DNA from: a virus
Virus record (IMG/VR): IMGVR_UViG_3300042260_000483
Coordinates: 22,090-86,089 of that record
Reading direction: 5' to 3' (one strand)
DNA length: 64,000 nucleotides
Shown here one piece after another: positions 13,674 to 52,224 of this stretch (position 1 is its first letter; each line of letters opens with the position of its first letter). The translations under genes were made by a program, and so were the position numbers. A model generated the notes under the pieces. It was given only the letters and a program-made list of their open reading frames with translations. It was not told the DNA's origin and made no database searches.

Positions 13674-15233
13674 CTACTTAGTTCGTTTTTTAATTATATT
13701 TTCAACAACTTCACTTAATCCTAATTTATCACTATAATCTGAAATTTCATAGTAATCGGAATCTTGAAGTTCTCTTTCAATTTTACTCCATGCCGAATTT
13801 GGATTTTTAGTGATAACTGCTGCTATCTTTTTTCTTCCAAACGCTCCGGCCTTTTGATATAATTTTTGAATTGCTTTAAAATGCCAATCACCCAACCCTA
13901 CTTCGTATAAATTACCATCTTCACTATCTGGATTATCAATTGCATTCTTTTCAGTTGGTGTTCCGGATAATTTATCAGAATGACGTGGTAATAAGAATGT
14001 ATCAGTTAGATTAGAACCATATTCTTTTAATTGAGATAAGAATACAGAATAATCAAAATCAATATTCTCTTCTTTAAATTGCTTAATCATATTTAAAGCA
14101 ATTTCTTTTCGATTTTCTTTATCTTTAACTTGTTTTAAAATATCAATTATACCAACAACCATTTCTCTTTCGTTATCAGAAAGTTCATCGTTTATTGATT
14201 CGGTTTTTATTTTTCTCTTTTGTTGAATGATTTGTTGAATTTGTGAAAATATAGTTTGTATATCTTTATCCAACTTTTTTTCATCTGCTGACATTGGTGA
14301 TTCAATATCTACATCTGAATATAATTTTTTCTTTTTGGCAATTAAAACATCTACTTTTTTAATTAAATCAGTTCTGACTTTATCTAAATCCTTTATAATA
14401 TCGGATGGGTTAGATGATTCGGTTACCGATTCTCTCATTTTTCCTAAATGTTTAAGTGCATCTTTTGCATTCTTCTTAAAGTAATCTTCAACTTCTTTTT
14501 TGGTATCAAATGATATTTGTCCTTTTCCTTTCTTCACATCATCTACCCAAAATGAATCAGAATCTCTATCAAATGAGTAATATCCTATAAGTTTATTATT
14601 GTATAAAACTTTACCATCCTTTATATCCCAACTTTCATTAAGTTTAGATTCTTTTACGATTTTTACTGGGTTTAAATGTGTTCCCAATTTATCACTATAA
14701 GCCATTACATAATGAGTTCCATCTTGGCCGATGTGTTTGTTAAAGTTTTTAATTTTAGACCACTCTTTTTTAGTAATGGTTTGTATTTCAGGTGCTTCGT
14801 TCATATTTTCACTTTCTAAATCTTCTTGTCCAGAATCATCTTTATCAAAATTAGTATCATCGTAATCTTCTCTAGGTGTAGTTCCTAATTGACTATGTTG
14901 GTCTGAAACTCTACCTACTAACCAATTTGCTGGAAAGTTTTCATTTACATCCATTTCATCATCGGAACGTAAAGAATCTTTAGGTGCAGAAGGTTGTGTT
15001 TGATGGTTTGGAATCATCATTGCATATTCCTTTAATCGTTTTACAATTTCTTGCTTTACCTTCTTAGGTAATCCCTTATGTTTGGTAGATGCAAAATCAT
15101 TAACATCAGATGGATTCATATCTTTTGCAACTTTCTTTAATTCAGCAGATGCATCAGATTGATTCATATCACCTTTTTGAAGTGCATGAACCATACCCAT
15201 AAATTTTTGTTGTTGTTTTGATGATGACGGCAT
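13674..15233 (-). CDS. Modular late protein with repeated ES(x)NE-like linkers
   Basis: 519 aa. The N-terminal 70 residues (SSKQQQKFMGMVHALQKG, then ASTKHKGLP) match the small DUF3008-type phage protein. Several unrelated modules follow, separated by short acidic linkers: ENMNEAPE (about 141), ESKLNESW (about 196), ESVTESS (about 269) and ESINDELS (about 345). The linkers resemble the ESVNE repeats in the 416-aa protein at 20829 and fit cleavage sites of a T4-type prohead protease (hydrophobic-x-E). I infer a polyprotein whose pieces are packaged in the head. The module functions are not recognised. A TATTTATA motif lies upstream (15260-15267). Confidence 0.72.
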   Translation of the reverse strand: MPSSSKQQQKFMGMVHALQKGDMNQSDASAELKKVAKDMNPSDVNDFASTKHKGLPKKVKQEIVKRLKEYAMMIPNHQTQPSAPKDSLRSDDEMDVNENFPANWLVGRVSDQHSQLGTTPREDYDDTNFDKDDSGQEDLESENMNEAPEIQTITKKEWSKIKNFNKHIGQDGTHYVMAYSDKLGTHLNPVKIVKESKLNESWDIKDGKVLYNNKLIGYYSFDRDSDSFWVDDVKKGKGQISFDTKKEVEDYFKKNAKDALKHLGKMRESVTESSNPSDIIKDLDKVRTDLIKKVDVLIAKKKKLYSDVDIESPMSADEKKLDKDIQTIFSQIQQIIQQKRKIKTESINDELSDNEREMVVGIIDILKQVKDKENRKEIALNMIKQFKEENIDFDYSVFLSQLKEYGSNLTDTFLLPRHSDKLSGTPTEKNAIDNPDSEDGNLYEVGLGDWHFKAIQKLYQKAGAFGRKKIAAVITKNPNSAWSKIERELQDSDYYEISDYSDKLGLSEVVENIIKKRTK

Positions 15234-15566: not shown

Positions 15567-16115
15567 TTAGTGTTTTATTTGCTGAACTCTCCACTTAACA
15601 TTCTTACTACGCAACATTTGTTTTGCTGCTTCAACATTCTTTTCGGAATCATCTGCAAAGTAAATATCATCATACCCATCGTTATCAATTTTCTTCTCAA
15701 TCCAATCTGCTTTATCTTTTGGATTATTAGAACCTAACGCAACTACAAATACTTTGTTTGAATTGATTCCAATATCTTTTAAGTAATTTTTAATTGGTTG
15801 ATATGCAGCACGGGCAGTTAAAATATACACACCTTCTCCACCACTAACTCTAATTATGTTTTTAAGAATATTTGTTATTTTAGTAATTTCTTCTGGGTTC
15901 TTAACAGATTCAAAATCTTTAAAATCATATACATCACCTGGTCTTTCAGTATAAACTGCGTATTGACCGGGAGTTAATTTAGATTTTTTACCATCTGAAT
16001 GTGTAATGTATATAAATGATGTTGTTTTTACTAGAGTATCATCAAAATCGAATATCCTCAATTTTTTTGATTCTACGAATAAACTTCTACTTATCATGTC
16101 TGTTAATTTTATCAT
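15567..16115 (-). CDS. HAD-family phosphatase with tag-like N-terminus
   Basis: 182 aa. HAD motif I is FDFDDTLV (about 22-29), motif II is in YILTARA (about 101) and motif IV is FADDSEKN (about 153-160). The fold and the ILTAR segment resemble the phosphatase domain of phage polynucleotide kinases and small phage HAD proteins. Residues 1-16 (MIKLTDMISRSLFVES) precede the enzyme and resemble the shared M(I)KLxDI leader of neighbouring genes; cleavage after FVE would release the phosphatase. The start overlaps the upstream stop by one base (TAATG). Phosphatase fold is firm; substrate and packaging are inferred. Confidence 0.82.
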   Translation of the reverse strand: MIKLTDMISRSLFVESKKLRIFDFDDTLVKTTSFIYITHSDGKKSKLTPGQYAVYTERPGDVYDFKDFESVKNPEEITKITNILKNIIRVSGGEGVYILTARAAYQPIKNYLKDIGINSNKVFVVALGSNNPKDKADWIEKKIDNDGYDDIYFADDSEKNVEAAKQMLRSKNVKWRVQQIKH

Positions 16116-16918
16116 TATAAATTGTCCAATTTCTTTTGAGCTTTTACTATATTTTGTTGAGCGGTTTTAATTGCATCTTGTTTCCAACTTATGTTTTTCT
16201 TTTTCCAAAATACTATACTATCTTCTTCCGATTGTTTCTTTTGTTGATTGTAATATTTTTCATCATTATTGTAATTTTGAGCAACACCTCTTTTAACAAT
16301 TTCTTCCCAACTTGGCCAGATGAATGGTTTCCCCGATACGTTATCACCATCATTAACCATCTTCAAAATTTGTTTATCATTGAATTTAGAATTTTTATCA
16401 ATTAAATTCTGATTTAATTCAATAACTTTTTTATTATGTTCAATTTCCTTTTGTAATTTCTCACCTTTGGATAATTTAACCAATTCAGCTTTCAACTTTT
16501 GAGTTTCAATAGATTGGCCAGTTTGTGGTAAGGTTGTTTTAGTTAAATAACGAAAGTGTAATTTCTGAATGTTATACCCACCTGCATAAATTACTTCGGT
16601 GTTGAATGGGTATTTATTACCATCTCTTTCGATTATACAACTGATTTGAAATGAACCTTTAGATGAATTTTTTACTTTAACCTCACTCATTTTATCAGTA
16701 GATAATGTATATTTTTCCAAAGCCTTAACCATATCATATTTTAAGGTGATTTCGGTGTAATATGCATCATAATCACTAAACACTTTATCTTCTTTTTTAT
16801 ACCTTTGTTTAGTATCTTCGATGATATCAGCAATTAAGGGTTTTAATTCTGCCAATAATCGTTTGATTAGTGGATTTTTAGTTTCTCCCTCATTTAGTAA
16901 ATCTCTTAATTTTATCAT
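16115..16918 (-). CDS. Tagged hypothetical protein, 267 aa
   Basis: Starts MIKLRDLLNEGETKNP: the leader shared with five or more neighbours, with LNE followed by G as a likely prohead-protease site at residue 10. The remainder is a helical, Lys/Glu-rich protein with a beta-rich centre (about 80-130) and a coiled C-terminal end. It is not recognised. It is the first gene behind promoter 16942-16973, whose leader ends AGAGATAAGATG. Proposed as a packaged internal protein. Confidence 0.68.
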   Translation of the reverse strand: MIKLRDLLNEGETKNPLIKRLLAELKPLIADIIEDTKQRYKKEDKVFSDYDAYYTEITLKYDMVKALEKYTLSTDKMSEVKVKNSSKGSFQISCIIERDGNKYPFNTEVIYAGGYNIQKLHFRYLTKTTLPQTGQSIETQKLKAELVKLSKGEKLQKEIEHNKKVIELNQNLIDKNSKFNDKQILKMVNDGDNVSGKPFIWPSWEEIVKRGVAQNYNNDEKYYNQQKKQSEEDSIVFWKKKNISWKQDAIKTAQQNIVKAQKKLDNL

Positions 16919-16941
16919 CTTATCTCTTAACGTTTATAAAG

Positions 16942-16973
16942 CTAATATAGTAATAATATTTGATATTACCAAA
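16942..16973 (-). promoter_or_regulatory. TTTG-N20-TATATTAG promoter
   Basis: TTTG at 16973-16970, a 20-nt spacer, TATATTAG at 16949-16942, then GCTTTATAAACGTTA and AGAGATA. Conserved-leader class; drives the MIKLRDLLNE gene. Confidence 0.85.
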
Positions 16974-16978
16974 TATTT

Positions 16979-17746
16979 TTAATACTTTTTTATCACTTTA
17001 TAATCAATTATTCCGGTTGGTTTTATGATAATTTCGTTCCACAGATTTGTCTTATTTTCTCTGCAATCATCTACGTTTTTACATAAGTTCGATTCTTCAT
17101 CTTGATATGCAAAACGGAATAGATTTGCTGCTCTATCACCATTATCAACTACCAATGATTTTACATCAGATTTGAATGCTGCTACTAATTTACCTTTTAT
17201 TCTTACTAAGATATTACTATCTGGTCTGAAGAATTCTTTAGCCTGAGTTGTGAAGGTTGAAATTGAAAATTGTGATTTATTCTGAATACCATCTATGATA
17301 TTTGCTAAACCCTCTTTATTTGTCCAATGTAGGGTTTTAACTATCTCATTGGTAGTTCCATAGACATCTTCAGTAAAACTCTTATCTAGGAGGATATATG
17401 GTTCAATTGCACCCCTACTATAAAAGAATGCAAACTTATCATTGTTTATATTAACGATATAATCTTTAAATTCATCTTTTAATCCCCAAACTCTATGATT
17501 TACAAAATCTTCAATGAAATCTAAAACCATTTTTTGTTTAAGTTGTGGGTATCGCTGAGTTTCTACATACAATTGAAATCCAAACCATTGATTTACTAAT
17601 GAAACTAATTGGGGATTATTATCAATCATTCCACCTCTTGTATCAAATCCTTGTTGTTCTAATGCAATGAATTGTTTGGCAATACTCTCCCACTCCGCAA
17701 TAGTTGCAAAATTCTTATATGGGTGAACGTATCCTCTTACTTCCAT
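16979..17746 (-). CDS. Hypothetical protein, 255 aa, ART-like motif pattern
   Basis: A soluble protein without the shared N-terminal tag. The C-terminal half holds LHWTNKEGL, then QFSISTFT, then LWNEIIIKP. This order (aromatic/basic strand, S-T-x motif, acidic strand) recalls R-S-E ADP-ribosyltransferases, and T4 packages such an enzyme (Alt). However, the catalytic Arg and ExE motif are not clear, so this is a weak suggestion. A similar ISTFT segment occurs, as I recall, in uncharacterised marine phage proteins. Located within the tagged-protein cluster, ending just before promoter 16942-16973. Confidence 0.6.
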   Translation of the reverse strand: MEVRGYVHPYKNFATIAEWESIAKQFIALEQQGFDTRGGMIDNNPQLVSLVNQWFGFQLYVETQRYPQLKQKMVLDFIEDFVNHRVWGLKDEFKDYIVNINNDKFAFFYSRGAIEPYILLDKSFTEDVYGTTNEIVKTLHWTNKEGLANIIDGIQNKSQFSISTFTTQAKEFFRPDSNILVRIKGKLVAAFKSDVKSLVVDNGDRAANLFRFAYQDEESNLCKNVDDCRENKTNLWNEIIIKPTGIIDYKVIKKY

Positions 17747-17751
17747 TTTAA

Positions 17752-18111
17752 TTAATATTTCCTTTCAGGATCTGGATGGGGTGTTGTATCGATATATTGG
17801 TCTACTTCTTTTTTATCATATAGATTTTTAACAAATTCGTATCCACCATGATGTATCGAATCATGTGATTGTGGTTTACCTGCCAATTCTGCATTGTTGT
17901 GGTCAATATCATGTTGATGCATAATAGTTCCCATTTTGTGAAATGTAATTTCTTCCCAATCTTTTAATGAATCATTGAATATGTGATATAATCTACTTTT
18001 TTCCCAACCCTTAGCAATAGTTTCTTCATCTGCAAATGGCCAGTTCCACCCCACCTCACCACAATTGTAGGTAGGACTTATTTCTTGTAATATATCAACC
18101 AATTTAATCAT
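17752..18111 (-). CDS. Tagged His-rich hypothetical protein, 119 aa
   Basis: Starts MIKLVDILQEISPTYNCG; LQE before I is a likely processing site at residue 10. The body is rich in His and Asp (HQHDIDHNN, HDSIHHGG), which suggests metal binding, and in Trp near the start. No known family. It overlaps the next tagged gene upstream by one base (TAATG), so these genes are translated in a coupled chain. Confidence 0.65.
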   Translation of the reverse strand: MIKLVDILQEISPTYNCGEVGWNWPFADEETIAKGWEKSRLYHIFNDSLKDWEEITFHKMGTIMHQHDIDHNNAELAGKPQSHDSIHHGGYEFVKNLYDKKEVDQYIDTTPHPDPERKY

Positions 18112-18458
18112 TATAATCTCTTTAATAAATCATCCATATTAATCTCAAAAGCATAACCTGCTCCACTATATGTCTTATCAAAGATGACTTTTAATTTTAA
18201 TTTTTTTTCTAATTGTTGTTTTAATAATTCCAAAAAATCAGCATCGCCACCTTTACCCATTCCTCTTTTAGCTAAGGTATATTGAGCAAGATTTCCACTT
18301 AATTTTTGTTTTATTGAATCAATTCCATCCACATCTTTCATTGATGATGGTAATAAAATAATTTTACCATTTTTTGGTATCGGTGTAAATTTTACATTTC
18401 CTGACCAATGTGGAAACTCAAACCCATTACTTTCTTTTAATATATCTTTTAATTTCAT
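18111..18458 (-). CDS. Tagged hypothetical protein, 115 aa
   Basis: Starts MKLKDILKESNGFEFP: the same leader, with LKE followed by S at residue 9 as possible cleavage site. The remaining part is a small alpha/beta protein with a Gly-rich segment (AKRGMGKGGDADF) near the middle. Not recognised. Lies two bases from the upstream gene at 18460. Likely one of the proposed packaged proteins. Confidence 0.65.
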   Translation of the reverse strand: MKLKDILKESNGFEFPHWSGNVKFTPIPKNGKIILLPSSMKDVDGIDSIKQKLSGNLAQYTLAKRGMGKGGDADFLELLKQQLEKKLKLKVIFDKTYSGAGYAFEINMDDLLKRL

Positions 18459-18459
18459 A

Positions 18460-18786
18460 TTAGTTAATATAATAAGTTAATTCAAATTTACCACTCTCCA
18501 TTCCATATACTGAAATGTTAAGGTTTTTTCTTTGTGGTTTCCCACCTTTTAATACCCCAACACTAAATGTATTAGTTTTACCAGCACTTGGTCTTGAACG
18601 AGAATACTTACCACCTAATGCAATTTGAGTTTGCCAATCATCTTCGTTGATTTCAAATCCTCTTTTTTCTGCTGCTTTTCTAGCGTAAGAAACTGCATCG
18701 GTAAATGAGTTAAAATAGGTATCGTTGACCTCGTTAATACTTGGTGTTATTTTTGCGTTAGCAATAATTGACTTTAATGTTATCAT
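18460..18786 (-). CDS. Tagged hypothetical protein, 108 aa
   Basis: Starts MITLKSIIANAKITPSINE; a longer form of the leader in which INE before V would be the processing site (residue 19). The body is basic and strand-rich (SRSRPSAGKTNTF). Unknown family; a small beta-barrel nucleic-acid-binding fold is possible from composition. Gap of 15 nt to the upstream tagged gene. Confidence 0.62.
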   Translation of the reverse strand: MITLKSIIANAKITPSINEVNDTYFNSFTDAVSYARKAAEKRGFEINEDDWQTQIALGGKYSRSRPSAGKTNTFSVGVLKGGKPQRKNLNISVYGMESGKFELTYYIN

Positions 18787-18801: not shown

Positions 18802-19362
18802 TTAAAATGGTCCGTTATATGGAAGCTGTTCACCACTTTCAGTATAAGCAAATCCATCATAAATACTAACTTTACTTTTTGGTTCTTTCATTTTTATACT
18901 AATCGATAATACCGATGGTTTACCATTTGGTAATTCGTAGTGTAGTATTCTAATGAATTTTTCTAAACCTTTGACAATTCTTTCCGTAGATACTTTATGA
19001 AAATCTGCCATTTTTTGAATAGATTTGTTATTCTTTTCTAAATGTTTCATAAAATCTCTTTTAGCATCAGCATCTTTTACGATTTTTTGAGTTGCCTCAT
19101 TTACTGATTCATTTCTTCCAAAATAAGAATGTTCGTAATGTTCTAACCCATATTTTCGAATTGTATCATCGTCCAATAAACGAGAATTTACTGTCCCTAA
19201 TCTTTTACCTTTGTAATAGACAGACCAGTTTCCTTGTGGAGATGCATCGACAGTGATATTTTTTAAATCTTTAATACCTCTATCGTGAATTTGGATAGCA
19301 TCTAAAAACTTAGCTGCCTTTGGAGTTAAACTCACTTCGTTTAAAATATCTTGTAATTTCAT
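18802..19362 (-). CDS. Tagged two-module protein with internal ESVNE
   Basis: 186 aa. Leader MKLQDILNEVSLTP (LNE site at 9), then a module of about 75 residues, then RNESVNEATQ (near 84-92), then a second, helical module. The ESVNE linker is identical to those in the 416-aa protein. I read it as two packaged products joined by a protease-sensitive linker. The modules are not recognised. A TATTTATA motif (19382-19389) and an AAGGAA element precede the ATG, so it probably starts a late unit. Confidence 0.7.
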   Translation of the reverse strand: MKLQDILNEVSLTPKAAKFLDAIQIHDRGIKDLKNITVDASPQGNWSVYYKGKRLGTVNSRLLDDDTIRKYGLEHYEHSYFGRNESVNEATQKIVKDADAKRDFMKHLEKNNKSIQKMADFHKVSTERIVKGLEKFIRILHYELPNGKPSVLSISIKMKEPKSKVSIYDGFAYTESGEQLPYNGPF

Positions 19363-20828: not shown

Positions 20829-22079
20829 TTAGACAAATATTCTTACGGAAAGAATTACATCATTACCGATTTTTAAATTATTTATTTTATGCTTTTCTAA
20901 ATCGTAAGATGGATTACCTATTGTGTTTGCTTTTGCAATTACACCATTCTTAATAAAATGTGGTTGTAGTCCAGAGTAATTATCATCTCTAAATATGAAT
21001 ACATCCGTTGGATTTTCTTTTGAGATTTTAATTATTTTCATCAAACCTTGTTTACCAATGAAACACCCACCTTCACATTTAGTTCCACCATAAGTTTTAC
21101 CTTTTTGGAATGCTTCGTTTACTGATTCGTTTCTTTTATCTAATGAAAAATATATTTGATTTTTAACTTTTTGAAATGAATTAACTGCTGCGGTATTATT
21201 ACCAATGAATCCCATATTCAATCCAATTTCAGATGAACGAACACCTTTTTTGGCTAATGTCATAATTTGTTTTGCAACATCTTTTGATAAAATTTCTTTG
21301 GGAGTTTCTACGTGAATCAGATGTTTTAATGATTCGTTTACTGATTCTTTGATTACAACGATTCCGTTTTCATCACCTCTCTTAGCAGTTTTGATACCGG
21401 CTTCGATTGAATCTAATTTATGTCTAACTTTAGTTGGTGAACTTACTTTTCCTGATGGGTCAGTTCTAGTCAATGTTGCAGTGGTATCATCCATATCAAC
21501 AATCTTATAGTATTTACCACCATCAATTCCTTTTAAACGAGTAAACCCTTGTCCTTTAATAACCGAACCTATTTTTAAATCAGTTGGATATTTTACTTCG
21601 TTTACGGATTCTTCAAACTCACCCTTCATATCTTTGTGTGCTTGTCTTGCTGCAGCACCACCCACTATTCTTGATGCGGGGTCTGCGTTTTTCAAAGCAG
21701 CAATCACACTAATTTGTTTTTGTAGTAAATTGTTATATAATTCAACGTATTCTTCTTTGGAAACTAATTTATTTTTCAACAAACTTAATATAAGTGCAGG
21801 TTCTTTAGTACGAATTCTATGGTCTTGTTGAATAGTTCCGTTTAATCTAGCCAAATCATTAGCAACAACTATCATCTTTTGCATTTTCTTACCATACATA
21901 GGATTACCTTTACCTGGTACTTTTGCATATGCCATTGCCAAATCTAATATTTGAACTGGTGTCATATTTCTCTTAGTATATTGCTCACTACCTAAGTTAT
22001 ATGATGCTTCTGTTAGAGATTGTTTAAATTTTTCTCTAATTGTTTCTTTTATTGCCGATTTTACTTGTGATAACTTCAT
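20829..22079 (-). CDS. Probable polyprotein: four modules joined by ESVNE repeats
   Basis: 416 aa. Leader MKLSQVKSAIKE... with a possible cut at SLTE/A (about 24). The remainder is split into four unrelated modules of about 70-135 residues by three linkers: EESVNEVKYP, KESVNESLKH and NESVNEAFQK. Each linker has the hydrophobic-x-E pattern used by T4-type prohead proteases, followed by a small or hydrophobic residue. Module 4 has CEGGC. None is recognised. The start has AAGGAAC about 7 nt upstream and a TATTTATA motif at 22115-22122. The repeated linker is seen; cleavage and packaging are inferred. Alternative: fused domains with flexible linkers. Confidence 0.75.
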   Translation of the reverse strand: MKLSQVKSAIKETIREKFKQSLTEASYNLGSEQYTKRNMTPVQILDLAMAYAKVPGKGNPMYGKKMQKMIVVANDLARLNGTIQQDHRIRTKEPALILSLLKNKLVSKEEYVELYNNLLQKQISVIAALKNADPASRIVGGAAARQAHKDMKGEFEESVNEVKYPTDLKIGSVIKGQGFTRLKGIDGGKYYKIVDMDDTTATLTRTDPSGKVSSPTKVRHKLDSIEAGIKTAKRGDENGIVVIKESVNESLKHLIHVETPKEILSKDVAKQIMTLAKKGVRSSEIGLNMGFIGNNTAAVNSFQKVKNQIYFSLDKRNESVNEAFQKGKTYGGTKCEGGCFIGKQGLMKIIKISKENPTDVFIFRDDNYSGLQPHFIKNGVIAKANTIGNPSYDLEKHKINNLKIGNDVILSVRIFV

Positions 22080-23519: not shown

Positions 23520-24953
23520 TTATAAATTAATTTTTGATCCAATAATAAATGAATTTATCAATGGTAACATTTCATTTGTGGATTTTATACCCGTCCAATT
23601 GAAATTTACTATAAAACGTTTGGTTAATTGTATAGTAAACCCGTTTGATGATATAAACATAACATCTCCATTAAATTCTTGCATTTGATTTACTGCGTTA
23701 ACGGGTGTGTTGGTTACGATAAAAGCTGGAGAATATGTTATGTTCTTTCCTACTTTAAATGAGTTTGTGTATAATGCATTCCAACCAATTGTATATGTTC
23801 CATAATCCAACATTTCACCCCATACTGCAGAACCATTGAATCCAATACCAAATGTTCCTTTTCTACCACTCATTGGTTCTATCCAACTCATTGATATCGA
23901 TGTTGCATTTGTGCCGAAATTGTTTGAGTATGATGCTGAAATAGATTCAATCCCACTTACTTTATAATCAGATGTCATATAAATTTTAGCAGTTGATGCG
24001 GATAAACTGAATTGTCTTAGGTTAGACCAAATCATTGTTCCTGCGTTATAACTTCTATCACCAAATATTGATGATTTAGATACCCCAACGGAAAGAACTG
24101 CATCGATTCCACCTGTTAAACTTTGCATACCAATCATATCACCACTTACCATCATTGGTGGTGCAGATGCACGTTTTTGTTGTTTTTCTTTTTTCTTATC
24201 TTCTTTTTTCTTATCGTCTTCTTTCTTTTTCTCTTCCTTAGTTTCCTCTTTTTTCTCTTCCTTTTTTTCTTCTTTAGTTTCCGATTTAGATTCTTCTTTC
24301 TTTTCCTCACTCTTACTTTCAGATTTACTTTCTGATTTAGATTCGGATTTAGTTTCACTCTTCGTTTCCGATTTTGAAGATGAACTACCCTCACTTTGTG
24401 ACGAAGATGAAGAAGAATTACCCTCACTTTGTGACGAAGATGAAGAAGAACTACTACTTGATGAAGATGATGAACTACCCCCACTTTGTGCAGGAGGTGG
24501 TGAAGAACTATTACTTGCAGGTGGTGGAGGTGGTGGTGTATTAACTACCGGAACTGATGGAATGTTTGAAGTTGCAGATGCTGCTTGAGATGCAGCACTT
24601 GCAGCCTGTGATGCTGCTTGAGATGCGGTTTGAGCTGCTTGTTGTGCTTGTTGTGCAGTTTGTTGGGCTTGTTGTGCTTGTTGAGTTGCAACCGAACATG
24701 GTGAAAGTGCATACCACCAATTATAAGTTTCGGTTAACCACATTTGAAGTGTTCCGTTTGTAACTTCTTGTTGAGTAAATACTCTAATTCGATTATAAAA
24801 TGCAACGGTTGCTCTACCATTTACAAATGTTGCCGTAACTACCTTTACATCACCCGTGCATCTATCAACAAAGGTTTGAGTGAACGTAGTTTGACCGTAT
24901 CCACTCAAACCTATGAAGGTTAGTAGTAATATGAATAATAATTTTTTTATCAC
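23520..24953 (-). CDS. Outer-membrane-type protein with Gln/Ala, Ser and Lys/Glu linkers
   Basis: 477 aa. Signal peptide 1-20 (MIKKLLFILLLTFIGLSGYG, cut before Q). A globular part with two Cys (about 32, 87), then a Gln/Ala-rich helix (94-137), a Pro stretch, a poly-Ser segment (about 160-200) and a Lys/Glu-rich segment (to about 275). The last 200 residues are strand-rich with alternating hydrophobics and end GSKINL, as in an outer-membrane beta barrel. The start is GTG at 24953; the overlapping ATG two bases earlier runs into a stop at once. It directly follows csgG (2-nt gap), so it may be a CsgG partner, replacing CsgF/CsgE. Function inferred only from context. Confidence 0.72.
   Translation of the reverse strand: MIKKLLFILLLTFIGLSGYGQTTFTQTFVDRCTGDVKVVTATFVNGRATVAFYNRIRVFTQQEVTNGTLQMWLTETYNWWYALSPCSVATQQAQQAQQTAQQAQQAAQTASQAASQAASAASQAASATSNIPSVPVVNTPPPPPPASNSSSPPPAQSGGSSSSSSSSSSSSSSSQSEGNSSSSSSQSEGSSSSKSETKSETKSESKSESKSESKSEEKKEESKSETKEEKKEEKKEETKEEKKKEDDKKKEDKKKEKQQKRASAPPMMVSGDMIGMQSLTGGIDAVLSVGVSKSSIFGDRSYNAGTMIWSNLRQFSLSASTAKIYMTSDYKVSGIESISASYSNNFGTNATSISMSWIEPMSGRKGTFGIGFNGSAVWGEMLDYGTYTIGWNALYTNSFKVGKNITYSPAFIVTNTPVNAVNQMQEFNGDVMFISSNGFTIQLTKRFIVNFNWTGIKSTNEMLPLINSFIIGSKINL
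24386..24450. repeat. Tandem 33-bp repeat in the Ser-rich linker
   Basis: Two near-perfect 33-bp copies (from 24386 and 24419) encode SSSSSQSEG-type units; a third, degraded copy starts near 24477. The period is a multiple of three, so copy changes keep the frame. This is a coding repeat, not an array. Confidence 0.8.
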
Positions 24954-27830: not shown

Positions 27831-28175
27831 CTAATTGATTATTATCGTTGTTTTACTTATTTCTTTTTTAGTAACATCTTCCAATAACAAATATAAGTAT
27901 TTAACCGAAATTGATTTAGTGTATATTTTCTTTACATTTTCACCATATTGACCTGTGAATTTTTCTCTACTTATCACTTGTCCACTTTCTTTATCAATTA
28001 AAGTTAGATAATATACTCCTGCAGTGGGTAAATCAAAGTGTATAGATTGACCATTTGAAACATTACTTTCAGTTACACTAAATATATCATCTTTAGCCAT
28101 AACTTCTGGAAATGGTATTTCTGGTTTACTACAACCCCACATTAAAATTATACATATAAATAGTATTTTTTTCAT
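27831..28175 (-). CDS. Surface-type lipoprotein, 114 aa
   Basis: Lipobox LMWGC (Cys 15) followed by SKPEIPF. The mature part is a strand-rich domain (GVYYLTLIDKESGQVISREK, GENVKKIYTK, YLYLLLEDV) with the same fold pattern as the 122-aa lipoprotein downstream; together they are diverged paralogues. The ATG overlaps the stop of the 762-aa lectin protein by one base (TAATG) with AAAGG upstream. Surface or periplasmic lipoprotein of an infected cell; exact role unknown. Confidence 0.7.
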   Translation of the reverse strand: MKKILFICIILMWGCSKPEIPFPEVMAKDDIFSVTESNVSNGQSIHFDLPTAGVYYLTLIDKESGQVISREKFTGQYGENVKKIYTKSISVKYLYLLLEDVTKKEISKTTIIIN

Positions 28176-30463
28176 TAGTTTACCTTTATTTTTAATTGTG
28201 TTCCACTTTTATTAACTGCATCTGTTGCTGATATTGATGATAATCCCAATACACTACCCAATCCTATTTTTGGTAAAAATGTTATTTTATATTCTGTTGT
28301 CTTATCTAATAAAGTTGAACCATCGGTAATCAACGAACCTAAAGTTATATAATCACCTTTATCAGTTCCAAAATTTGTAGGATTACCTTTTGTAGTGAAT
28401 TCTATTTTTTGGAATTCCAATGAAGTATTATCATAGTTTAACTTAAATTGTGTTCCAACTAATTCTTGTTGTAATGGGTCTATTGATATGGTGACAACCA
28501 ATTTACCACCAACGTTTTCACCCATAAGTGATGCGTTAATTTGATTAGAAACTGAATTTACACTTAAACTCATCGTTTTCAAACTATTAGTTGAAATGAC
28601 AGATGTAGTTTGTTGTGCTGAATGGGATAGATTTACATCACCTAACCAAGTTACATTCATATTATAGGTGTTATTCATTCCACTCAATGTGAATGGGAAT
28701 AAATTACGAGTTGAATTAAATTGAGTATTCCAATTAGATTTTGTAATAGCATCATAATCTGATTTACTATACAATTTCATCAAATAAGTTAATGCAGAAT
28801 ATTGTGTGAGAGGTTGAACACCTGTTAAATGTTGAAGAAGTTTATATGTGTCCGATTCATCAAACACACCATTACCATCCACATCTGCGTTCATATATTG
28901 TAGACCAGATGTAAATTCTAATCCACTTTGGTTTCCAAATAACCCACCATTTGCTAATTCCTTAAATGCAATGTAAACATCAGATACACCTACGATATTA
29001 CTATATAATGTATTTAATTCTGTTTGTGAATTTGGAATCAATTCGATACCATGTGGTTTATATGATTCAATTGGTGAAAATGTAAATTCTGCTCTTAATC
29101 CATATGCACCATTACCTGACCTAATAAACGATGCAAATGATGAACCACTAAAATTAAATTGAGTTGAAGTATAAACATAAACTTCTGTCCAACCATTTGG
29201 GTCATATGAATTAAATGTTACAGGTCCGTTCCATAAATCAAATAATTGTAAACTACTAATCGTAGATGGATTTGATAAAATCCCATTTACTTCCCTACTA
29301 TCAATTCCGATTCGATATCTTTGATTAATTACATCATAATCATAAATTACACACCATTCCACTCCACCGGTTGTAGTTGTTGCTCTTACTCCACCATTTG
29401 ATATTTTAGCAGTATCTAATAAACTTGTCAAATCTACTTTACCTAATCCACTCAATTGTTTAGCAGTTCCATTTACTATATTCCAATTATTGTTAGTGTA
29501 GGTGTATCCTTTTGCTGAAAATTTAGTTTCATCTACATTACCACCGAAATCAATATTGAATTTTGCAGATAAAACTTCTCCATTTGAATGAGATACACTA
29601 TTGGTATAAAATTCCGTAAATGTTGCATCATCTGGATTAGACCAAGTTCCGAATTCAACTACATATGCACAACTAAAATTATTTGGTAAATCATTCCATT
29701 GAGACCCACCTCCCCATTTTGTTACTGCATAATCTTCATTACCACTATTATTTGGCTCACCACCTGCCCAATTATTATATTGACCTACTATATTTCCACT
29801 AAGTTGTCCGTTTGAGGTTTTTATTAAAGTTCCTGCTTCAGGACCTGCATCAATTCTCCATTGACCTTCGGTTAATTCATCAGTTAATGCAAACCAAATA
29901 CTAGCTTGTGGGACGTTTGCATATATAAAAGCATCTTCCGAAGCAGATGTTATTGTTACCAAATATCCTTGCTGACCTTTGAATGTTTGTTGTGATGATA
30001 ATAACTTTGCATTAGAATAAGTTGCTCCACTTGATATTGGTCTATAAAAGTGTCCATTAACACCATTGTAAAAATAACCAACAGGGTTTACAGTTGCTGC
30101 TATGGATAATTGAACACTTCCTACTACCGAACCCGTATTTATCTTTAAAGATGATAATGCAGTGTTGATATTATCCATCGTACCAGATACCACTAAACGA
30201 GTTTTATTGCCATTTAAGGTAAATCCACTTGCTGCAGTTAAACCTGTTGTTGTATTTAATACGAATGTTGTACCTGAAGGTGGATTTACTAAACTGATTG
30301 ATGCTAATAAAGTTGATGTTGAACTAAACCCACTCAATACGAATCCACTTGCATCTTGTCCATTAGTGGATTGTGTAAATGATTTAGAGTCCGGAGCAGA
30401 TACACTCTGTCCGAACCCTAAAAATGATGTTAATAATAATAATGTAACTAATATTTTTTTCAT
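28175..30463 (-). CDS. Secreted C-type-lectin, dockerin and cohesin-like protein
   Basis: 762 aa. Signal peptide 1-18 (cut at FGFG-QS). Residues 20-125 are beta-rich. A C-type lectin-like domain spans about 130-273, with the mannose-type motif EPN (236-238) and WND (256-258), both calcium and sugar contacts. After an unknown beta domain, a dockerin-like EF-hand loop lies at 527-538 (DVDGNGVFDESD) with a second half near GDVNLSHS (608). The last 120 residues resemble a cohesin domain (QFKLNYDNTSLEFQKI). The pair recalls cellulosome assembly. Exported from the infected cell, or part of a tail-related adhesin; the signal peptide favours export. Paralogous C-terminal half in the next gene. Confidence 0.78.
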   Translation of the reverse strand: MKKILVTLLLLTSFLGFGQSVSAPDSKSFTQSTNGQDASGFVLSGFSSTSTLLASISLVNPPSGTTFVLNTTTGLTAASGFTLNGNKTRLVVSGTMDNINTALSSLKINTGSVVGSVQLSIAATVNPVGYFYNGVNGHFYRPISSGATYSNAKLLSSQQTFKGQQGYLVTITSASEDAFIYANVPQASIWFALTDELTEGQWRIDAGPEAGTLIKTSNGQLSGNIVGQYNNWAGGEPNNSGNEDYAVTKWGGGSQWNDLPNNFSCAYVVEFGTWSNPDDATFTEFYTNSVSHSNGEVLSAKFNIDFGGNVDETKFSAKGYTYTNNNWNIVNGTAKQLSGLGKVDLTSLLDTAKISNGGVRATTTTGGVEWCVIYDYDVINQRYRIGIDSREVNGILSNPSTISSLQLFDLWNGPVTFNSYDPNGWTEVYVYTSTQFNFSGSSFASFIRSGNGAYGLRAEFTFSPIESYKPHGIELIPNSQTELNTLYSNIVGVSDVYIAFKELANGGLFGNQSGLEFTSGLQYMNADVDGNGVFDESDTYKLLQHLTGVQPLTQYSALTYLMKLYSKSDYDAITKSNWNTQFNSTRNLFPFTLSGMNNTYNMNVTWLGDVNLSHSAQQTTSVISTNSLKTMSLSVNSVSNQINASLMGENVGGKLVVTISIDPLQQELVGTQFKLNYDNTSLEFQKIEFTTKGNPTNFGTDKGDYITLGSLITDGSTLLDKTTEYKITFLPKIGLGSVLGLSSISATDAVNKSGTQLKIKVN

Positions 30464-30466
30464 ATC

Positions 30467-32119
30467 TTATTCAACTATTAAGTCAATTTTGTTACCCTTT
30501 GAATCTACTGCATCTGAAAGAACGAAGTAGAATAATCCTGCAGTATTTGTTAAAGGTGTTTTTGGTGTAAAAATCAATTTGTAAGGAGTCCCTACTTTAA
30601 TTCTTGCAGTTTTTAATTGGTCAATAGAACCAAACGTTAATCTACCATTTTCATGTGTAGAGAAATTAGTGATGGTATTACCTGTATCAAATATTACATT
30701 ATCCAATGTTAATTTAGATTCATCATAATTCATTACGACTTGTAAACCTGCTAATTCTGTTTTTGTTAATTTAGTAGTTAATACAACTTTACCACCTTCC
30801 AATGTAGATGATATACCCAATGTTGCTTTTTCAACTGCTAAAGTTTGATAAGCCATTGTTGTATTACTCATTGATTTGATTGAGTTTACTTGTTTACTAC
30901 TCACTGCGTTTGTATATTGTCCAGCACTTATTTTAGTTGCTATTACTGATGGGTCTGATGAATGTGACCAGTTCAAATCACCACCCCAAGCAAATACTGC
31001 ATAAACTTCTTTAATTGGAGTATCAATCAATACTCTGTTTTTAACAATACCATCTAACCAATTTTGATTCAATAAACCACTATACCATCTTACTGATGTT
31101 GAAGTGTTAGTAGGAATCATTGCAGTTGATGATACATCTTGTCCCATTATGTGTGCAAATAAAGCGTAAGAATCACCTTCACCGAATGCGTTATTATTAG
31201 TAGTTACTTTACCAATTTTCTTTTCCAATGTAGGTAAAGTAAAGTAGTTTCCAGTTCCACTAATATCAGTTTGTGAATGACCTAAGAATGCTTTGTATGC
31301 ATCCGATACGGTTACAATATCATTCATCCATGCTTTTTGGAATGCCGGTCCAACAAATACACCAACTGAATCTCCTACTTTAACTTGAGTTGTGAATAGT
31401 GCCTCACCACTACCATCCAATGGTAATTGTGCAATAGGTTGTTGAGACCAATCAATAGTGCCACTGCCATCTGATTTTAATCTCATCAATTGAACGTTAT
31501 GATCTGTGATGTTATATCCTTGTGGAAATAAAACTTTTACTTTGAATTGAGATGTATTACCCGTTACGTTATTTAAAGATGATGAACCACCGCCATAAAT
31601 AGTTCCCACATTCGAACCATCAATATCAGTACCAGTTGCTAAATCTAATTTGAAAATATTGTTGTAAGTATTTTGGTCTTTTAGAATGTATTTTTGAGTA
31701 GCAATCAATCCACTAATAGATGCATCTGCACGTTGAATAGTCAATTGACCAACATTCCAATCTACATTTGATTGATAATTCCACGGAGTTAACCCATACT
31801 GAACGTTCAAATCATTATCACTTGCACCACCATTGAATATAAACTTATAGTTATTCCAACCAGTATAGAAAGTTTGAGTAGATGAACCCTGATTAAATGT
31901 AGTTGAAACATATGTCAACGCTTTGTTGTTATATTGATATCTAAACCAAAGATAACGTGGATTCTTAATCACTTGTCCTTTTGATAATGTATATTTGACA
32001 GTGATGGTATCTCCAACTTTTAACCCAGTTGCAGGTGTTAAGGACTGACTAATAGTTAGTTGTCCAAATGATGTAAGTGATATTAAAAATATCCCCAAAA
32101 ATGTTAATAGTTTTTTCAT
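30467..32119 (-). CDS. Secreted dockerin/cohesin-like protein, 550 aa
   Basis: Signal peptide 1-19 (MKKLLTFLGIFLISLTSFG, cut before Q). A beta-rich N-terminal part (about 20-260), a dockerin-like helical part (SDAYKAFLGHS and GEGDSYALFAHIMG, about 270-330), GDLNWSHS (about 395) and a C-terminal cohesin-like domain (about 430-550, LAGLQVVMNYDESKLTLDNV). The order dockerin-like, GD(V/L)NxSHS, cohesin-like is shared with the 762-aa neighbour, so the two C-terminal halves are paralogous. It lacks the lectin domain. Self- or cross-assembly of the two on the cell surface is an attractive inference. Confidence 0.72.
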   Translation of the reverse strand: MKKLLTFLGIFLISLTSFGQLTISQSLTPATGLKVGDTITVKYTLSKGQVIKNPRYLWFRYQYNNKALTYVSTTFNQGSSTQTFYTGWNNYKFIFNGGASDNDLNVQYGLTPWNYQSNVDWNVGQLTIQRADASISGLIATQKYILKDQNTYNNIFKLDLATGTDIDGSNVGTIYGGGSSSLNNVTGNTSQFKVKVLFPQGYNITDHNVQLMRLKSDGSGTIDWSQQPIAQLPLDGSGEALFTTQVKVGDSVGVFVGPAFQKAWMNDIVTVSDAYKAFLGHSQTDISGTGNYFTLPTLEKKIGKVTTNNNAFGEGDSYALFAHIMGQDVSSTAMIPTNTSTSVRWYSGLLNQNWLDGIVKNRVLIDTPIKEVYAVFAWGGDLNWSHSSDPSVIATKISAGQYTNAVSSKQVNSIKSMSNTTMAYQTLAVEKATLGISSTLEGGKVVLTTKLTKTELAGLQVVMNYDESKLTLDNVIFDTGNTITNFSTHENGRLTFGSIDQLKTARIKVGTPYKLIFTPKTPLTNTAGLFYFVLSDAVDSKGNKIDLIVE

Positions 32120-32703: not shown

Positions 32704-32734
32704 AAAAACAAAAAACTCACTATTAAGTGAGTTT
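32704..32734 (-). terminator. Intrinsic terminator ending the glycosyltransferase operon
   Basis: Perfect 9-bp stem (32713-32721 with 32726-32734), a 4-nt loop and a T-rich run on the minus strand. The stop codon of the last GT gene lies in the loop, so the terminator is embedded in the coding end. Confidence 0.85.
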
Positions 32735-33616
32735 ATTGTATTCTTCTGTTAATTTGGAGGTAGCAATTTTTTTAAATTCATCCTTTCGATTGTAAATACT
32801 CATATGATTTATATAGTGTCCTTGATTTCGATATCGATAATTTTCACAAACAACTATGTTTTTTAACTTAAATTGTTTGACAGGATTATTATCCAATCTC
32901 GAGATTTTTTCAGAAGCCCACATAATGTAAGTATCATCTGCAGGACCATAATGACCAAAGGATTCTGGTATACCGATTCGATTTAATAATTTAGCACTAA
33001 TACACGTAAACCATCCTCCTGCGAATTTGTAAGTTGGTTGTTCTGGTATCGTATTTACAACCGATTCAACTGATACCTCGCCTTTAATTCCACTATCTTT
33101 ATATGGATTATTAGTTAGATGATAATTTAATGGTTTATCTAAAAATGATTCATTAACTAAACAATCCCACGTATCATCCCATAATTTTACAATTTCGGGA
33201 GTGATGATAGTATAATCATATTCAGATAAAGCTGATAAACTACTTACCATATAAGGTAAAGTTCGTTCATCGAATACAATATCACTATCTAACCAAATAA
33301 AATAATCAGCATCTTCATATCTTTCTAAGACATCTCTTTTATGTGAGATACATCCTTTAATTGTTTCACTTGCATTGAAAGTTTTACTACACCAATCCAC
33401 ATCAGTAGATAATTTTAACAATTTATCTAAAAAATATGATTTTGGTAATGATGATTTTTTCCAATCAATCATATCATCTGCTATAGTCATTGCCACATCG
33501 ATTGTAAAATCAATTTTAGAATCTAATAAGAGAGATGATTTTTTTAATTGCAAAAGAATTTGCTCTAAATCATCAATCTCATGTGGTAATATAAATGTTG
33601 ATAAAACTATATTCAT
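32723..33616 (-). CDS. GT-A glycosyltransferase-like protein
   Basis: 297 aa. DYFIWLDSDIVFD (about 104-116) gives the DxD-type metal/nucleotide-sugar motif. YKFAGGWFTCIS and GPADDTYIMW are acceptor-side segments seen in family 2-like enzymes. It transfers a sugar from a nucleotide donor to an unknown acceptor; no membrane segment, so it acts in the cytoplasm. Last gene of the GT operon; 4-nt overlap with the upstream gene and terminator inside its 3' end. Confidence 0.75.
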   Translation of the reverse strand: MNIVLSTFILPHEIDDLEQILLQLKKSSLLLDSKIDFTIDVAMTIADDMIDWKKSSLPKSYFLDKLLKLSTDVDWCSKTFNASETIKGCISHKRDVLERYEDADYFIWLDSDIVFDERTLPYMVSSLSALSEYDYTIITPEIVKLWDDTWDCLVNESFLDKPLNYHLTNNPYKDSGIKGEVSVESVVNTIPEQPTYKFAGGWFTCISAKLLNRIGIPESFGHYGPADDTYIMWASEKISRLDNNPVKQFKLKNIVVCENYRYRNQGHYINHMSIYNRKDEFKKIATSKLTEEYNKLT

Positions 33617-34404
33617 TTGTATTTTGTTTTTATTAAGTTTTTAAGTGTATCATCCCTATCATACTGATGCACGATTGTAAATAATTCACCATTTGAAGTT
33701 TTTATCAAATCACCATCGATTGTAGCAAGTTCTTCACTACAAAGATGTTGTTTATCAAATCTAATTTTCAAATGTAATTGTGCAGCAAAACCTTCTTGTT
33801 GTTTTACAAACTGAACCTTATCTTTGAATTGATGTAATCTCAATAATATATTATATGCTGCTTGGTCTGCTAATTGTCCTGGATTTGAAGTTGTTAATGA
33901 CCATCTGTAAATATCGATGAATAAATCTTTAATAGCATCTTTTTTACCAACAATCGTTCCTGCACAATAAATTTCTTCGTTCTTCAACCATTCCCATTCA
34001 ATTGGAAATGATGTTCCTGCATTAATATGTGCCCAACTATCGTGATCAAAAATCAATGATTCAGAAAAAGCAAGGATATCACCTTTCATATTCTTATCTA
34101 ACCATTCAGTTGGATTTTTTTGAAATACAATATCTTTCACATCACACCATATAATAACATCAGTTTGTAAAGATTGTAATAAAACATACATATCTCTAAA
34201 TCTCTGAACTATTATATGTTGTTGTAATTCTGAACCATATAAACTCCATCCTTTACTTTTAAGATACTCAATCGTATCATTTGATATTTCATATACCAAC
34301 ATCAATTTCTCGCCGGTATATCCACTTTGTTCGATAGATTCTACAAATGGTTTTATATCTTCAATTCCGTATTTTGTTATACAACCTACTATTGTGTAAT
34401 TCAT
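33613..34404 (-). CDS. Glycosyltransferase-like protein (GT-A, DxD variant)
   Basis: 263 aa from ATG 34404 (MNYTIVGCITKYG), which overlaps the upstream stop by one base (TAATG); a longer start at 34425 is less likely. VIIWCDVKDIVFQKNPTEW (about 85-103) gives a DxxD-type segment like the DxD in sugar transferases, and GTSFPIEWEW, EEIYCAGTIVG with LADQAAYN are typical of nucleotide-diphospho-sugar transferases. Family not pinned. Member of the GT operon. Confidence 0.68.
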   Translation of the reverse strand: MNYTIVGCITKYGIEDIKPFVESIEQSGYTGEKLMLVYEISNDTIEYLKSKGWSLYGSELQQHIIVQRFRDMYVLLQSLQTDVIIWCDVKDIVFQKNPTEWLDKNMKGDILAFSESLIFDHDSWAHINAGTSFPIEWEWLKNEEIYCAGTIVGKKDAIKDLFIDIYRWSLTTSNPGQLADQAAYNILLRLHQFKDKVQFVKQQEGFAAQLHLKIRFDKQHLCSEELATIDGDLIKTSNGELFTIVHQYDRDDTLKNLIKTKYK

Positions 34405-35144
34405 TATTTTCCGTATTTTTTCCAATCGTTGTGTTTGAATAATCCTTCATTGTGTCCAACTTTGAAATCTTGTCTTGGCCACCAATATGCAATCTTTCTT
34501 TCCAAATCAATACCCTCACCCATAAATGGTTCGATTGCATCTAAATAAAATTGTTTTTTATATAAACAAGGATTGTTTGTCCAATTCCCATAACGAGATG
34601 TGGTGTAAAACATATCTTCACTTTTCTTAATTTGTTCTGGAAACTCAATATCAGGTTCACACCAATGAACTGAATCTAATAGATGTGGTGATGTAAGTTC
34701 GTGCCAATCATCATAGTATTCTAATTCTCTACCTTTATATTGAAATGAAAAATGTGGATGACCGGGTTCTCTTCTATGTCTTAAACGAACTACATCCAAT
34801 CCCATTTCTAATGCCTGATAACTTTTCTGTAATCTTAAAAATGTAGTTTCTTCGTTTTCGATTAGATTCCAATCATGCTCTAAAATAAGAACATAATCTG
34901 TTTGTGCATTTTCAGTTAAACGTTTGAATGCTTTACCAATTCCAATATTTTTTTGTAAACCAATACAATCAATACCAAAATGTGATGCAATTTTAATATC
35001 CTCCTCCGTTACTTCTTGAAAAAGAATAGTAACATCGTTTACCATATCGAATAACCCATTGTGGTAATATGTTGTCAGAGTGTCTACCAGAACTTGACCT
35101 GAATGCCATGCAAGTATTCCTACACTAATTGGTAGTTTTTTCAT
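34404..35144 (-). CDS. Glycosyltransferase family 2-like protein
   Basis: 246 aa. ISVGILAWHSGQVLVDTL at the start, NIGIGKAFKRL, and YVLILEHDWNLIENE in place of the DxD motif (EHDW variant). Domain length and the RLRHRREPGHPH segment suit a family 2-like cytoplasmic sugar transferase. The unusual EHD may change metal use. Overlaps the GT8-like gene by 20 nt. Confidence 0.7.
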   Translation of the reverse strand: MKKLPISVGILAWHSGQVLVDTLTTYYHNGLFDMVNDVTILFQEVTEEDIKIASHFGIDCIGLQKNIGIGKAFKRLTENAQTDYVLILEHDWNLIENEETTFLRLQKSYQALEMGLDVVRLRHRREPGHPHFSFQYKGRELEYYDDWHELTSPHLLDSVHWCEPDIEFPEQIKKSEDMFYTTSRYGNWTNNPCLYKKQFYLDAIEPFMGEGIDLERKIAYWWPRQDFKVGHNEGLFKHNDWKKYGK

Positions 35145-35868
35145 AGTAATTTTTTATATGATTCCAAATTTGTCTTATAATATTTCTTTTGTTAGTATGT
35201 CCACCCATCTTAGGACCAGTAAAGTGCCAGATATATGAATCATTTACAAACGAACCATCCTCATACTCATGCATGACCATATTATTCCAAATATATTCTA
35301 AATGATGAATTTCAGTTGGAAACAATTCATATGCTATAATATTAACAGGAGTTTGTTCACAAGCATTTGGTCCTTGTGGTCCGATTTTGTAAAAGAATGA
35401 CCAATAATCATAATACTTAGGCATCTGTTCTCTAATTGCTAAATATTTTTTCTTTGATAAAAATACAAATCCCGTATTAAAGTATTTATCTGCCGGAGTT
35501 TTTATATCAGGGTTAATTCTAATCCATTGTTGTAAATGACGATGTCCAGAAAATTCTCCACCTGCATCTGCTACAACACACATTTCATAATCTTTAGCAA
35601 CTTCGAATATATTTGGGGTATCCCATCTAACCATAGTATCTGCATCTACGATTAAAACTTTATCATATTCCAAATCAACTAAACGATTATCAAACCAGGG
35701 TTCAAAACATCCGTTTCCCCATGGCTCGAAATCATATACTTTTTTTTCATTTGCAATAATCAATTCAATATTCCACTTATTGCAATACCATTTCCAGGAT
35801 TCAATACATTCTGGTAATTGAGTATTAAATCCATTATACGCAGGTATAAAGATTATATTTTTACTCAT
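35125..35868 (-). CDS. GT8-like glycosyltransferase
   Basis: 247 aa from ATG 35868 (MSKNIIFIPAYNG), which overlaps the stop of the upstream GT by 4 nt (ATGA); a longer frame from 35940 runs inside that gene. KVLIVDADTMVRWDTPN is the DxD (DAD) motif, and YFNTGFVFLSKKKY and WHFTGPKMGG match GT8-type nucleotide-sugar transferases. It probably adds a hexose to a surface or virion polymer; donor and acceptor unknown. Confidence 0.78.
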   Translation of the reverse strand: MSKNIIFIPAYNGFNTQLPECIESWKWYCNKWNIELIIANEKKVYDFEPWGNGCFEPWFDNRLVDLEYDKVLIVDADTMVRWDTPNIFEVAKDYEMCVVADAGGEFSGHRHLQQWIRINPDIKTPADKYFNTGFVFLSKKKYLAIREQMPKYYDYWSFFYKIGPQGPNACEQTPVNIIAYELFPTEIHHLEYIWNNMVMHEYEDGSFVNDSYIWHFTGPKMGGHTNKRNIIRQIWNHIKNYYEKTTN

Positions 35869-36497
35869 CTCTGAATTGTTTCGTAATAATCGTTTTGTTT
35901 TTCCTGTCTTTGAATTTCTTTTGGATGGTATAAACACCAATCTTCTTCAGTTGGGAAATTTGAAAATGTGGTGTAACCTGTGATGGTTTCGTGAACTTTA
36001 TTCATCCACACAACGTCATCGGTTCTTTTGTAAATTCTCAATTGGTAATCGGGAAAATTTACCCAACCTTTTTCATTTACATTCCATCCCCATTTTTTAA
36101 TGTGAGATTCGGTTAATCCTTCAACGGTATTGATACGTGGAACGAATACTACATCTACTGGGTTGGATTCTAATACTTGAGGTAAATACTCAATTAATGT
36201 CTGATGTGGAATTTCATCTGCATCAATTTGAAAAATATAATCCTTACTACAATGTGATTTTAGATTATTTTTAAAAGTTGCAAAATCATTATTAAGTGGA
36301 AATGAAATAAGTGTATGATTATCTTGCATCATATCCATTACATTCAAATATTCTTTGACTTCTTGAGTAGCAGATGTTGAATCATATTGAATTACAACTT
36401 CATCTTCTGGTCTTATATGTAATTGTAAAAAGTTTAGTAATTTAACTATTTCTTCTAATTCATTACAAACCGTTATTGCGTAACTTATACTAATCAT
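35865..36497 (-). CDS. Glycosyltransferase family 2
   Basis: 210 aa. SYAITVCNELEEIVKLL at the N-terminus and IFQIDADEIPHQTLIEYL (DxD within DAD) are classical GT2 motifs (nucleotide-sugar binding and metal binding). The C-terminus (WCLYHPKEIQRQEKQ) is short. Overlaps both neighbours, as all genes in this operon do. A cytoplasmic, inverting sugar transferase. Confidence 0.8.
   Translation of the reverse strand: MISISYAITVCNELEEIVKLLNFLQLHIRPEDEVVIQYDSTSATQEVKEYLNVMDMMQDNHTLISFPLNNDFATFKNNLKSHCSKDYIFQIDADEIPHQTLIEYLPQVLESNPVDVVFVPRINTVEGLTESHIKKWGWNVNEKGWVNFPDYQLRIYKRTDDVVWMNKVHETITGYTTFSNFPTEEDWCLYHPKEIQRQEKQNDYYETIQR

Positions 36498-50580: not shown

Positions 50581-52224
<1,644 letters not shown>

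Follow-up and report, generated by a model that had tools for sequence, protein, structure and literature searches.

A putative multi-module precursor of internal head proteins in T4-like phages, with modules bounded by prohead-protease-type sites

The 416-aa gene and its neighbourhood

The window, i.e. the whole stretch of DNA analysed here, comprises 64,000 nucleotides (bases 22090-86089) of an uncultured virus record with a total length of 86,089 bases. Its minus strand, which carries all features described in this section, holds an open reading frame for a protein of 416 aa (20829..22079), a putative multi-module precursor with relatives in which the modules are shuffled. The pentamer ESVNE occurs three times in this protein, at residues 157-161, 245-249 and 318-322, within the linkers EESVNE/V (21597..21611), KESVNE/S (21333..21347) and NESVNE/A (21114..21128; the slash follows the site Glu). 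These linkers separate four modules, just as the initial annotation had described. In 20,000 shuffles of the protein, three copies of any pentamer were obtained in 8 and at least one ESVNE in 7; the repeat is real and far beyond chance.

Module 1 spans residues 25-161 (21597..22007; 137 aa, 15.2 kDa, pI 9.5), module 2 residues 162-249 (21333..21596; 88 aa, 9.5 kDa, pI 9.4), module 3 residues 250-322 (21114..21332; 73 aa, 8.2 kDa, pI 9.6) and module 4 residues 323-416 (20832..21113; 94 aa, 10.4 kDa, pI 9.5). They were said to be unrelated parts, which is true insofar as every module has a separate set of relatives among other proteins. A fifth piece, residues 1-24 (22008..22079), is set off by an SLTE/A site after residue 24 and resembles a targeting propeptide, being longer than the M..LxxLLxE starts of neighbouring genes. 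The whole protein has a pI of 9.7, and besides the boundary sites its four modules contain one interior LxE.

The same linker is present as NESVNEA in the 186-aa protein (18802..19362), where the initial annotation had also noted it. This protein begins with MKLQDILNE and consists of two modules joined by ESVNE at residues 85-89 (19096..19110). Its ortholog in the related 288-kb record G002 (gene 326, 84 aa) ends at FGRN; past this point, the window protein runs on with ESVNE and another module, which is absent from the G002 ortholog. Next to it lies the gene for a 108-aa protein (18460..18786). The 519-aa protein (13674..15233) has an N-terminal DUF3008, which is not an enzyme domain, and a C-terminal module after NLYE. 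Of the similar linkers reported for it, NMNE/A, KLNE/S and SVTE/S were retrieved; SINDE is present too, but does not follow the hydrophobic-x-E rule because of the Asn two places before the Glu. Compared with its G002 ortholog, segment 202-272 between the LNE and VTE sites (14418..14630) is 42% identical, whereas its flanks are 93% and 90% identical. Several of the genes in between (15567..18458) have targeting-like starts (MIKLRDLLNE, MIKLVDILQE, MKLKDILKE), and inspection of their N-termini showed that their order matches G002.

Module exchange at the linkers

A scan of viral contigs provided nine loci with relatives, and the proteins of these loci contain the same parts in other orders, numbers and genes, with the breaks at the linkers. 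In L003, the ortholog consists of modules 1, 3 and 4 and lacks module 2. L006 holds module 4 before module 3, the reverse order, followed by a module resembling that of the 186-aa protein, and in L010 module 3 is flanked by two SINE sites. Module 1, which has different right-hand neighbours in L003 and L004, is followed in L004 by a module like the C-terminus of the 519-aa protein (44% identity over 68 aa); the match begins at the site Glu in both proteins (ESVNE/M and NLYE/V), and the last module of this L004 protein is related to the 108-aa protein. In L005 and L114, module 4 is the first module and stands behind a start of the targeting-like type. In L005, it directly follows MISLKEA; next come SITEA and a relative of the 108-aa protein. 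Throughout these differing contexts the modules are preserved as units, with about 60-90% identity. Modules are also encoded individually, by genes that begin with a targeting-like start resembling that of T4.

Since the loci overlap and are related, the fractions given in this study do not represent independent events; L006 to L009 all share one multi-module protein, whole or cut. At least 590 relatives were confirmed in the relatives scan, of which 80 were kept, and at least 18 in another scan. A tblastn search of the 416-aa protein against 50,697 phage records gave no match at E 0.01, and none of 150 pattern matches for module 4 in genome_contigs encodes a relative. Flavobacterium phage immuto, whose host is Flavobacterium sp. 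LMO8, and Methylophilales phage Melnitz are cultured relatives. Clustering of the modules by single linkage was discarded; it chained unrelated segments together, and therefore the resulting 72 multi-module architectures are a rough number only.

The linker is widespread among related sequences. From 116 of them (window included, overlaps kept), we obtained 1492 ORFs of at least 60 aa and 995 representatives at 90% identity, and in both sets ESVNE is the commonest pentamer. It occurs 103 times in the representatives, compared with a mean of 0.34 in 50 shuffles, and 58/116 sequences have an ORF with ESVNE. The motif is short, which might suggest a meaningless chance repeat; these counts and the junction test below reject that explanation, and we attach practically no weight to it. 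At the DNA level, 56/103 ESVNE sites, in 46/91 distinct contexts, are encoded by one identical 15-base word, GAATCAGTAAACGAA, whereas arithmetic from codon use yields an expected share of about 4%. All 80 occurrences in the loci, with overlapping loci counted, are in frame. A pure DNA recombination site was considered as well, and no off-frame copy of GAATCAGTAAACGAA was present in the loci examined. The linker is thus unusually conserved as DNA beyond the need of the protein, and recombination at the linker is therefore part of the story; in our reading, the shared word is one adaptor copied by recombination.

Module boundaries were also located independently of the motif, as joints at which a protein has one partner to the left and another to the right. 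Without any motif supplied, 308 recombinant junctions were found in 166 proteins, and the top tetramer around them was SVNE. A [LIVM]xE site lies at most 4 residues away in 173/308 junctions, compared with 62 at random (maximum of 300 trials, 82); the other 135 have no such site within 4 aa. After removal of junctions sharing a 6-mer, the enrichment persisted (68/124 vs 25, z 10.4). It is specific to this rule, as neither replacement of the Glu in [LIVM]xE by D, K, Q, N, S, A, G, T or R (z -2.3 to 0.6) nor four other P3 classes before x-Glu (z at most 1.6) gave an enrichment at the deduplicated junctions. Even in proteins without any S[VIL]xE-type motif, 54/132 junctions have [LIVM]xE, compared with 25.6 expected. 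Breakpoints taken from all BLAST alignment ends gave a weaker enrichment (strict motif within 6 aa: left 132/767 vs 41, right 142/952 vs 48); such ends mix real joints with fade-outs, which is why joints with different partners were used instead.

T4 gp21 cleaves after L/I-x-E, as stated in an excerpt of PMC9026906. These enrichment tests indicate that the junctions follow the same rule, extended to Val and Met. Val at P3 goes beyond what has been published for T4, but is plausible given that the major capsid protein (MCP) of immuto has IVSE/A at the corresponding place. The proposal in the initial annotation that the hydrophobic-x-E linkers are of the T4 prohead-protease type holds insofar as they coincide with module boundaries and follow the rule, SINDE being the misfit. 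Avoidance of interior sites by the modules was not supported (ratio of [LIVM]xE to shuffles 1.18, compared with 1.36 in other proteins), so the modules would need protection by folding. The boundary rule also survives a change of linker letters: MelnitzEXVC044M_20, a protein of the Kyanoviridae phage Melnitz, contains a relative of the 108-aa protein between the sites EMDE/AKSS and VISE/EE, whereas in L005 the related module stands behind SITE/A. No linker pentamer is prominent in Melnitz, and ESVNE as a standard adaptor is therefore a trait of this group rather than a general one.

Prohead protease, head operon and targeting-like starts in related records

A matching prohead protease, as implied by the initial annotation, is found in the family: a protease of the gp21 type (Peptidase_S77) is encoded in 5/9 related records, the 288-kb G002 included, and a gp23 capsid protein in 3/9. 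Multi-module genes lie a short distance upstream of the protease gene in relatives. The 86-kb record of the window, itself a fragment, gave no match to Peptidase_S77 or gp23. In an alignment of six sequences, H85, S140 and D168 of T4 gp21, which we take to be the catalytic residues, are invariant. In L008, a portal-like gene and a gene for 289 aa precede the 457-aa multi-module gene, which contains modules 4 and 3. Between this gene and the 199-aa protease gene lies one of 157 aa that has ESVNE in its interior. Beyond the protease gene come two further genes, another multi-module gene (538 aa), one of 100 aa, an acidic scaffold-like gene and finally that of the capsid protein. The names portal-like and scaffold-like are tentative assignments, based largely on position. 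The corresponding order in T4 is 20, 67, 68, 21, 22, 23.

The position of the capsid site matches as well. T4 gp23 loses 65 residues, according to an excerpt of PMC9958956, and its break FLTE/A aligns with LLDE/A of G002. All 30 capsid ORFs with LPLVR have [LIVM]xE before a small residue at most 45 aa upstream of this motif, a count that is anchored on LPLVR and whose 45-aa span leaves room for some chance matches.

Within G002, ESVNE is confined to few genes. It occurs five times in 3/428 genes: two immediately precede the protease gene, and the third, homologous to the 416-aa gene, lies about 100 kb from the ESVNE genes of the head operon. The broader motif [EDNQKTSG]S[VIL][NTKSD]E was found 38 times in 29/428 genes, compared with 16.6 expected (200 shuffles, maximum 27), so that look-alikes of ESVNE do exist singly elsewhere in G002. 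Most of these are single matches in unrelated genes; at least three broader motifs are present only in a head-operon gene and the 416-aa homolog.

Targeting-like starts have a similar distribution. The pattern M..LxxLLxE, a sequence feature chosen after viewing the window, was seen in 8/428 G002 genes; three of these belong to the head operon, and the other five lie in the cluster that corresponds to the window. The window and G002 would therefore share a second head-type cargo locus. In addition, for modules known both in fused form and at the beginning of a separate gene, the Glu ending the start and the linker Glu stand in the same register in 0.47 of cases (mean of 21 families, 145 proteins). 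A shift by a single residue in one of the two directions gives 0.25, and for all other shifts the value does not exceed 0.14. For example, MISLKE/AFIKGQTYGG corresponds to ESVNE/SFVKGKTYGG and MIKLKELLSE/IKFDSNG to ESVNE/LKTLSNG. In 8/21 families, both examples from the window among these, there is no such coincidence.

Several further observations were made around the head genes of these relatives. In immuto, the gene between the protease and capsid genes (L021:17583-18824) encodes a scaffold-like protein in which a module of ~60 aa is tandemly duplicated and bounded by GVNE/GFEQW and LEE/GFEQW. In the 484-kb uncultured phage LR756508, the prohead protease gene (L022:6481-8205) seems to hold a long insert, presumably intein-like, and many neighbour genes have a start of the type MK..E.KLR..I..E. 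A short cysteine-containing module (DPCWKGYEMIGM...VPNCVP) at residues 135-182 of L008:6611-8227 is found again in cyanophages and haloviruses; the DPCWKGYEMIGM module of Haloarcula sinaiiensis tailed virus 1 lies under a feature annotated as head maturation protease.

A candidate precursor of several internal head proteins

The modules share their size and charge with the internal proteins (IPs) of T4, whose mature forms have pI values of 9.0-9.7, compared with 9.4-9.6 for the window modules. Among 49 multi-module proteins, the median pI of the segments is 9.6, and 79% exceed 9, in contrast to 33% of 584 other proteins. Searches for known families and folds gave little. PHROG contained no match to the 416-aa protein at E 0.01, and its sole Pfam match, Ribosomal_S13_N, was below the cut-off of that family. 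Among this protein and the multi-module relatives scanned, no Pfam family was above cut-off, and no enzyme or peptidase domain was found. The structure model of the 416-aa protein (22 sequences, mean pLDDT 42.9) is confident in module 3 only and too poor to judge linker exposure; VIA-align retrieved only common helical arrangements for it (Z at most 8.1). For a two-module relative from L005, the model was better (mean pLDDT 69.7), and Foldseek gave no match in the PDB at E 0.001, which does not by itself imply a new fold. The modules matched no known family, fold or function in PHROG, Pfam and structure searches.

We consider it rather probable that the product of the 416-aa gene is a precursor which carries several internal head proteins of a T4-like phage and is processed by the prohead protease. 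The sequences show that modules are exchanged at these sites, that the site rule is specific, that relatives have protease and capsid genes and that the modules are small and basic; cleavage, packaging, ejection and a function of the modules in the host are what we infer. The N-terminus of the precursor would target it to the prohead core, where a gp21-type prohead protease may cut after the Glu of each hydrophobic-x-Glu linker and thereby free four small basic proteins. These would remain with the packaged DNA and then be ejected into the host. A single gene is thus the probable source of several proteins that travel in the virion. Since the modules begin and end at protease sites, phages of this group can swap, acquire or drop them at the linker, and processing of the cargo would remain correct. 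The polyprotein interpretation of the initial annotation is partly supported overall; module exchange at sites of the protease type goes beyond that proposal, being both firmer and more general. As to function after ejection, counter-defence is our first guess, by analogy with IPI* of T4 (excerpt of PMC3012670).

Known systems share parts of this scheme. In T4 IPIII, the first 10 residues suffice as targeting sequence (excerpt of PMC9026906), and IPI* is an injected anti-restriction protein that blocks a host restriction enzyme (excerpt of PMC3012670). As in IPI, IPII, IPIII and Alt of T4, the proteins described here have a targeting-like N-terminus ending in hydrophobic-x-Glu and predicted small basic mature products, and as in the T4 internal proteins, variable cargo stands behind a conserved start (excerpts of PMC3012670 and PMC9026906). 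In T4, each internal protein has its own gene and an N-terminal propeptide, with Alt trimmed at the C-terminus too; here, in contrast, one chain carries several modules, every joint between them has a site, and these sites are where entire modules are exchanged. The similarity to the gp21 system, compared over the substrates gp22, gp67, gp68, gp23 and gp24, lies in the same protease family in relatives, the matching position of the MCP site and the cleavage rule apart from Val and Met. Giant-phage proteins such as SPN3US gp245 and phiKZ gp175 likewise undergo several cuts in one head protein precursor (excerpts of PMC10052503 and PMC5694885); in the same excerpts, these cuts fall in propeptides that are removed and involve MEROPS family S80 and a different motif. 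Polyvalent proteins (Iyer et al. 2017) are multi-domain and predicted to be transmitted with the genome (excerpt of PMC5512222). They are described there with enzymatic domains and often their own peptidase, whereas here Pfam revealed no enzyme domain and the proposed cutter is the prohead protease. In the open-access PMC literature searched, we found neither a phage polyprotein cut at prohead-protease sites nor shuffling at such sites.

One alternative is that the protein is a degradable core filler, cut at the linkers like T4 gp22, gp67 and gp68, with its fragments discarded from the prohead instead of serving as cargo. These multi-site substrates of T4 are broken down, the core proteins being degraded by gp21 (excerpt of PMC9958956), and the multi-module gene of relatives between the portal-like and protease genes occupies the place of T4 gp67/gp68. 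Against this, modules of the window type look preserved, as units across contexts, and the window gene lies outside a head operon, like its distant G002 homolog. The modules are moreover basic and 8-15 kDa in size, while the scaffold of the group has a pI of 4.1 and is dense in LxE (5.7 per 100 aa); the 416-aa protein likewise failed to resemble the acidic, LxE-dense gp22 and gp67. T4 gp68 is basic too, however, so this mismatch speaks only against gp22 and gp67, and charge alone does not decide between cargo and core filler. On the whole, we regard a core filler as unlikely.

Somewhat less likely still are uncut beads on a string, in which the linkers would be flexible joints that recombine via identical DNA and undergo no proteolysis. 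The conserved 15-base word is the best evidence for this explanation, and a role in recombination is compatible with it. Yet the word is always in frame, the [LIVM]xE rule is obeyed at junctions of proteins without an SVNE-type motif, the boundary in Melnitz has other letters, and the register of the Glu is common to fused and stand-alone copies above the level of chance shifts. It is also conceivable, but quite improbable, that a host protease or another phage protease cuts the precursor, or that the protein acts outside the head. The window record, a fragment, indeed gave no match to the protease; the site rule is that of gp21 apart from Val and Met, and the confinement of ESVNE in G002, mostly to genes just upstream of the protease gene, argues against such explanations.

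If the cargo precursor reading is true, a multi-protein precursor whose exchangeable cassettes are marked off by protease sites would offer phages a general means of loading their payloads and making them more diverse. The chances are about even that this amounts to a true viral polyprotein strategy of tailed phages in which the prohead protease site is both maturation cut and adaptor for cassette exchange, providing combinatorial injected payloads from a shared pool, with the 15 bases as recombination handle. T4, for contrast, delivers a few separate internal proteins (excerpt of PMC3012670). The site rule would also serve to find candidate injected proteins in uncultured phages, such as those among the 58 sequences holding ESVNE, and the adaptor might help to load several proteins into a T4-type head.

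Elsewhere in the window, a 477-aa secreted-looking protein (23520-24953) has long Gln/Ala, Ser and Lys/Glu/Ser low-complexity runs and gave no match in a Pfam scan. Two large proteins with signal-peptide-like starts are encoded at 28175-32119; both have sub-threshold Pfam matches to cohesin, and one of them (762 aa) matches a C-type lectin above cut-off. They are followed at 32723-37251 by a row of genes, several of which we take to be glycosyltransferase-like and SGNH-hydrolase-like; similar starts are present in G002. A phage-encoded GroEL (PHROG match) lies at 50581-52215, and the protein encoded at 45778-46080 is presumably GroES-like.
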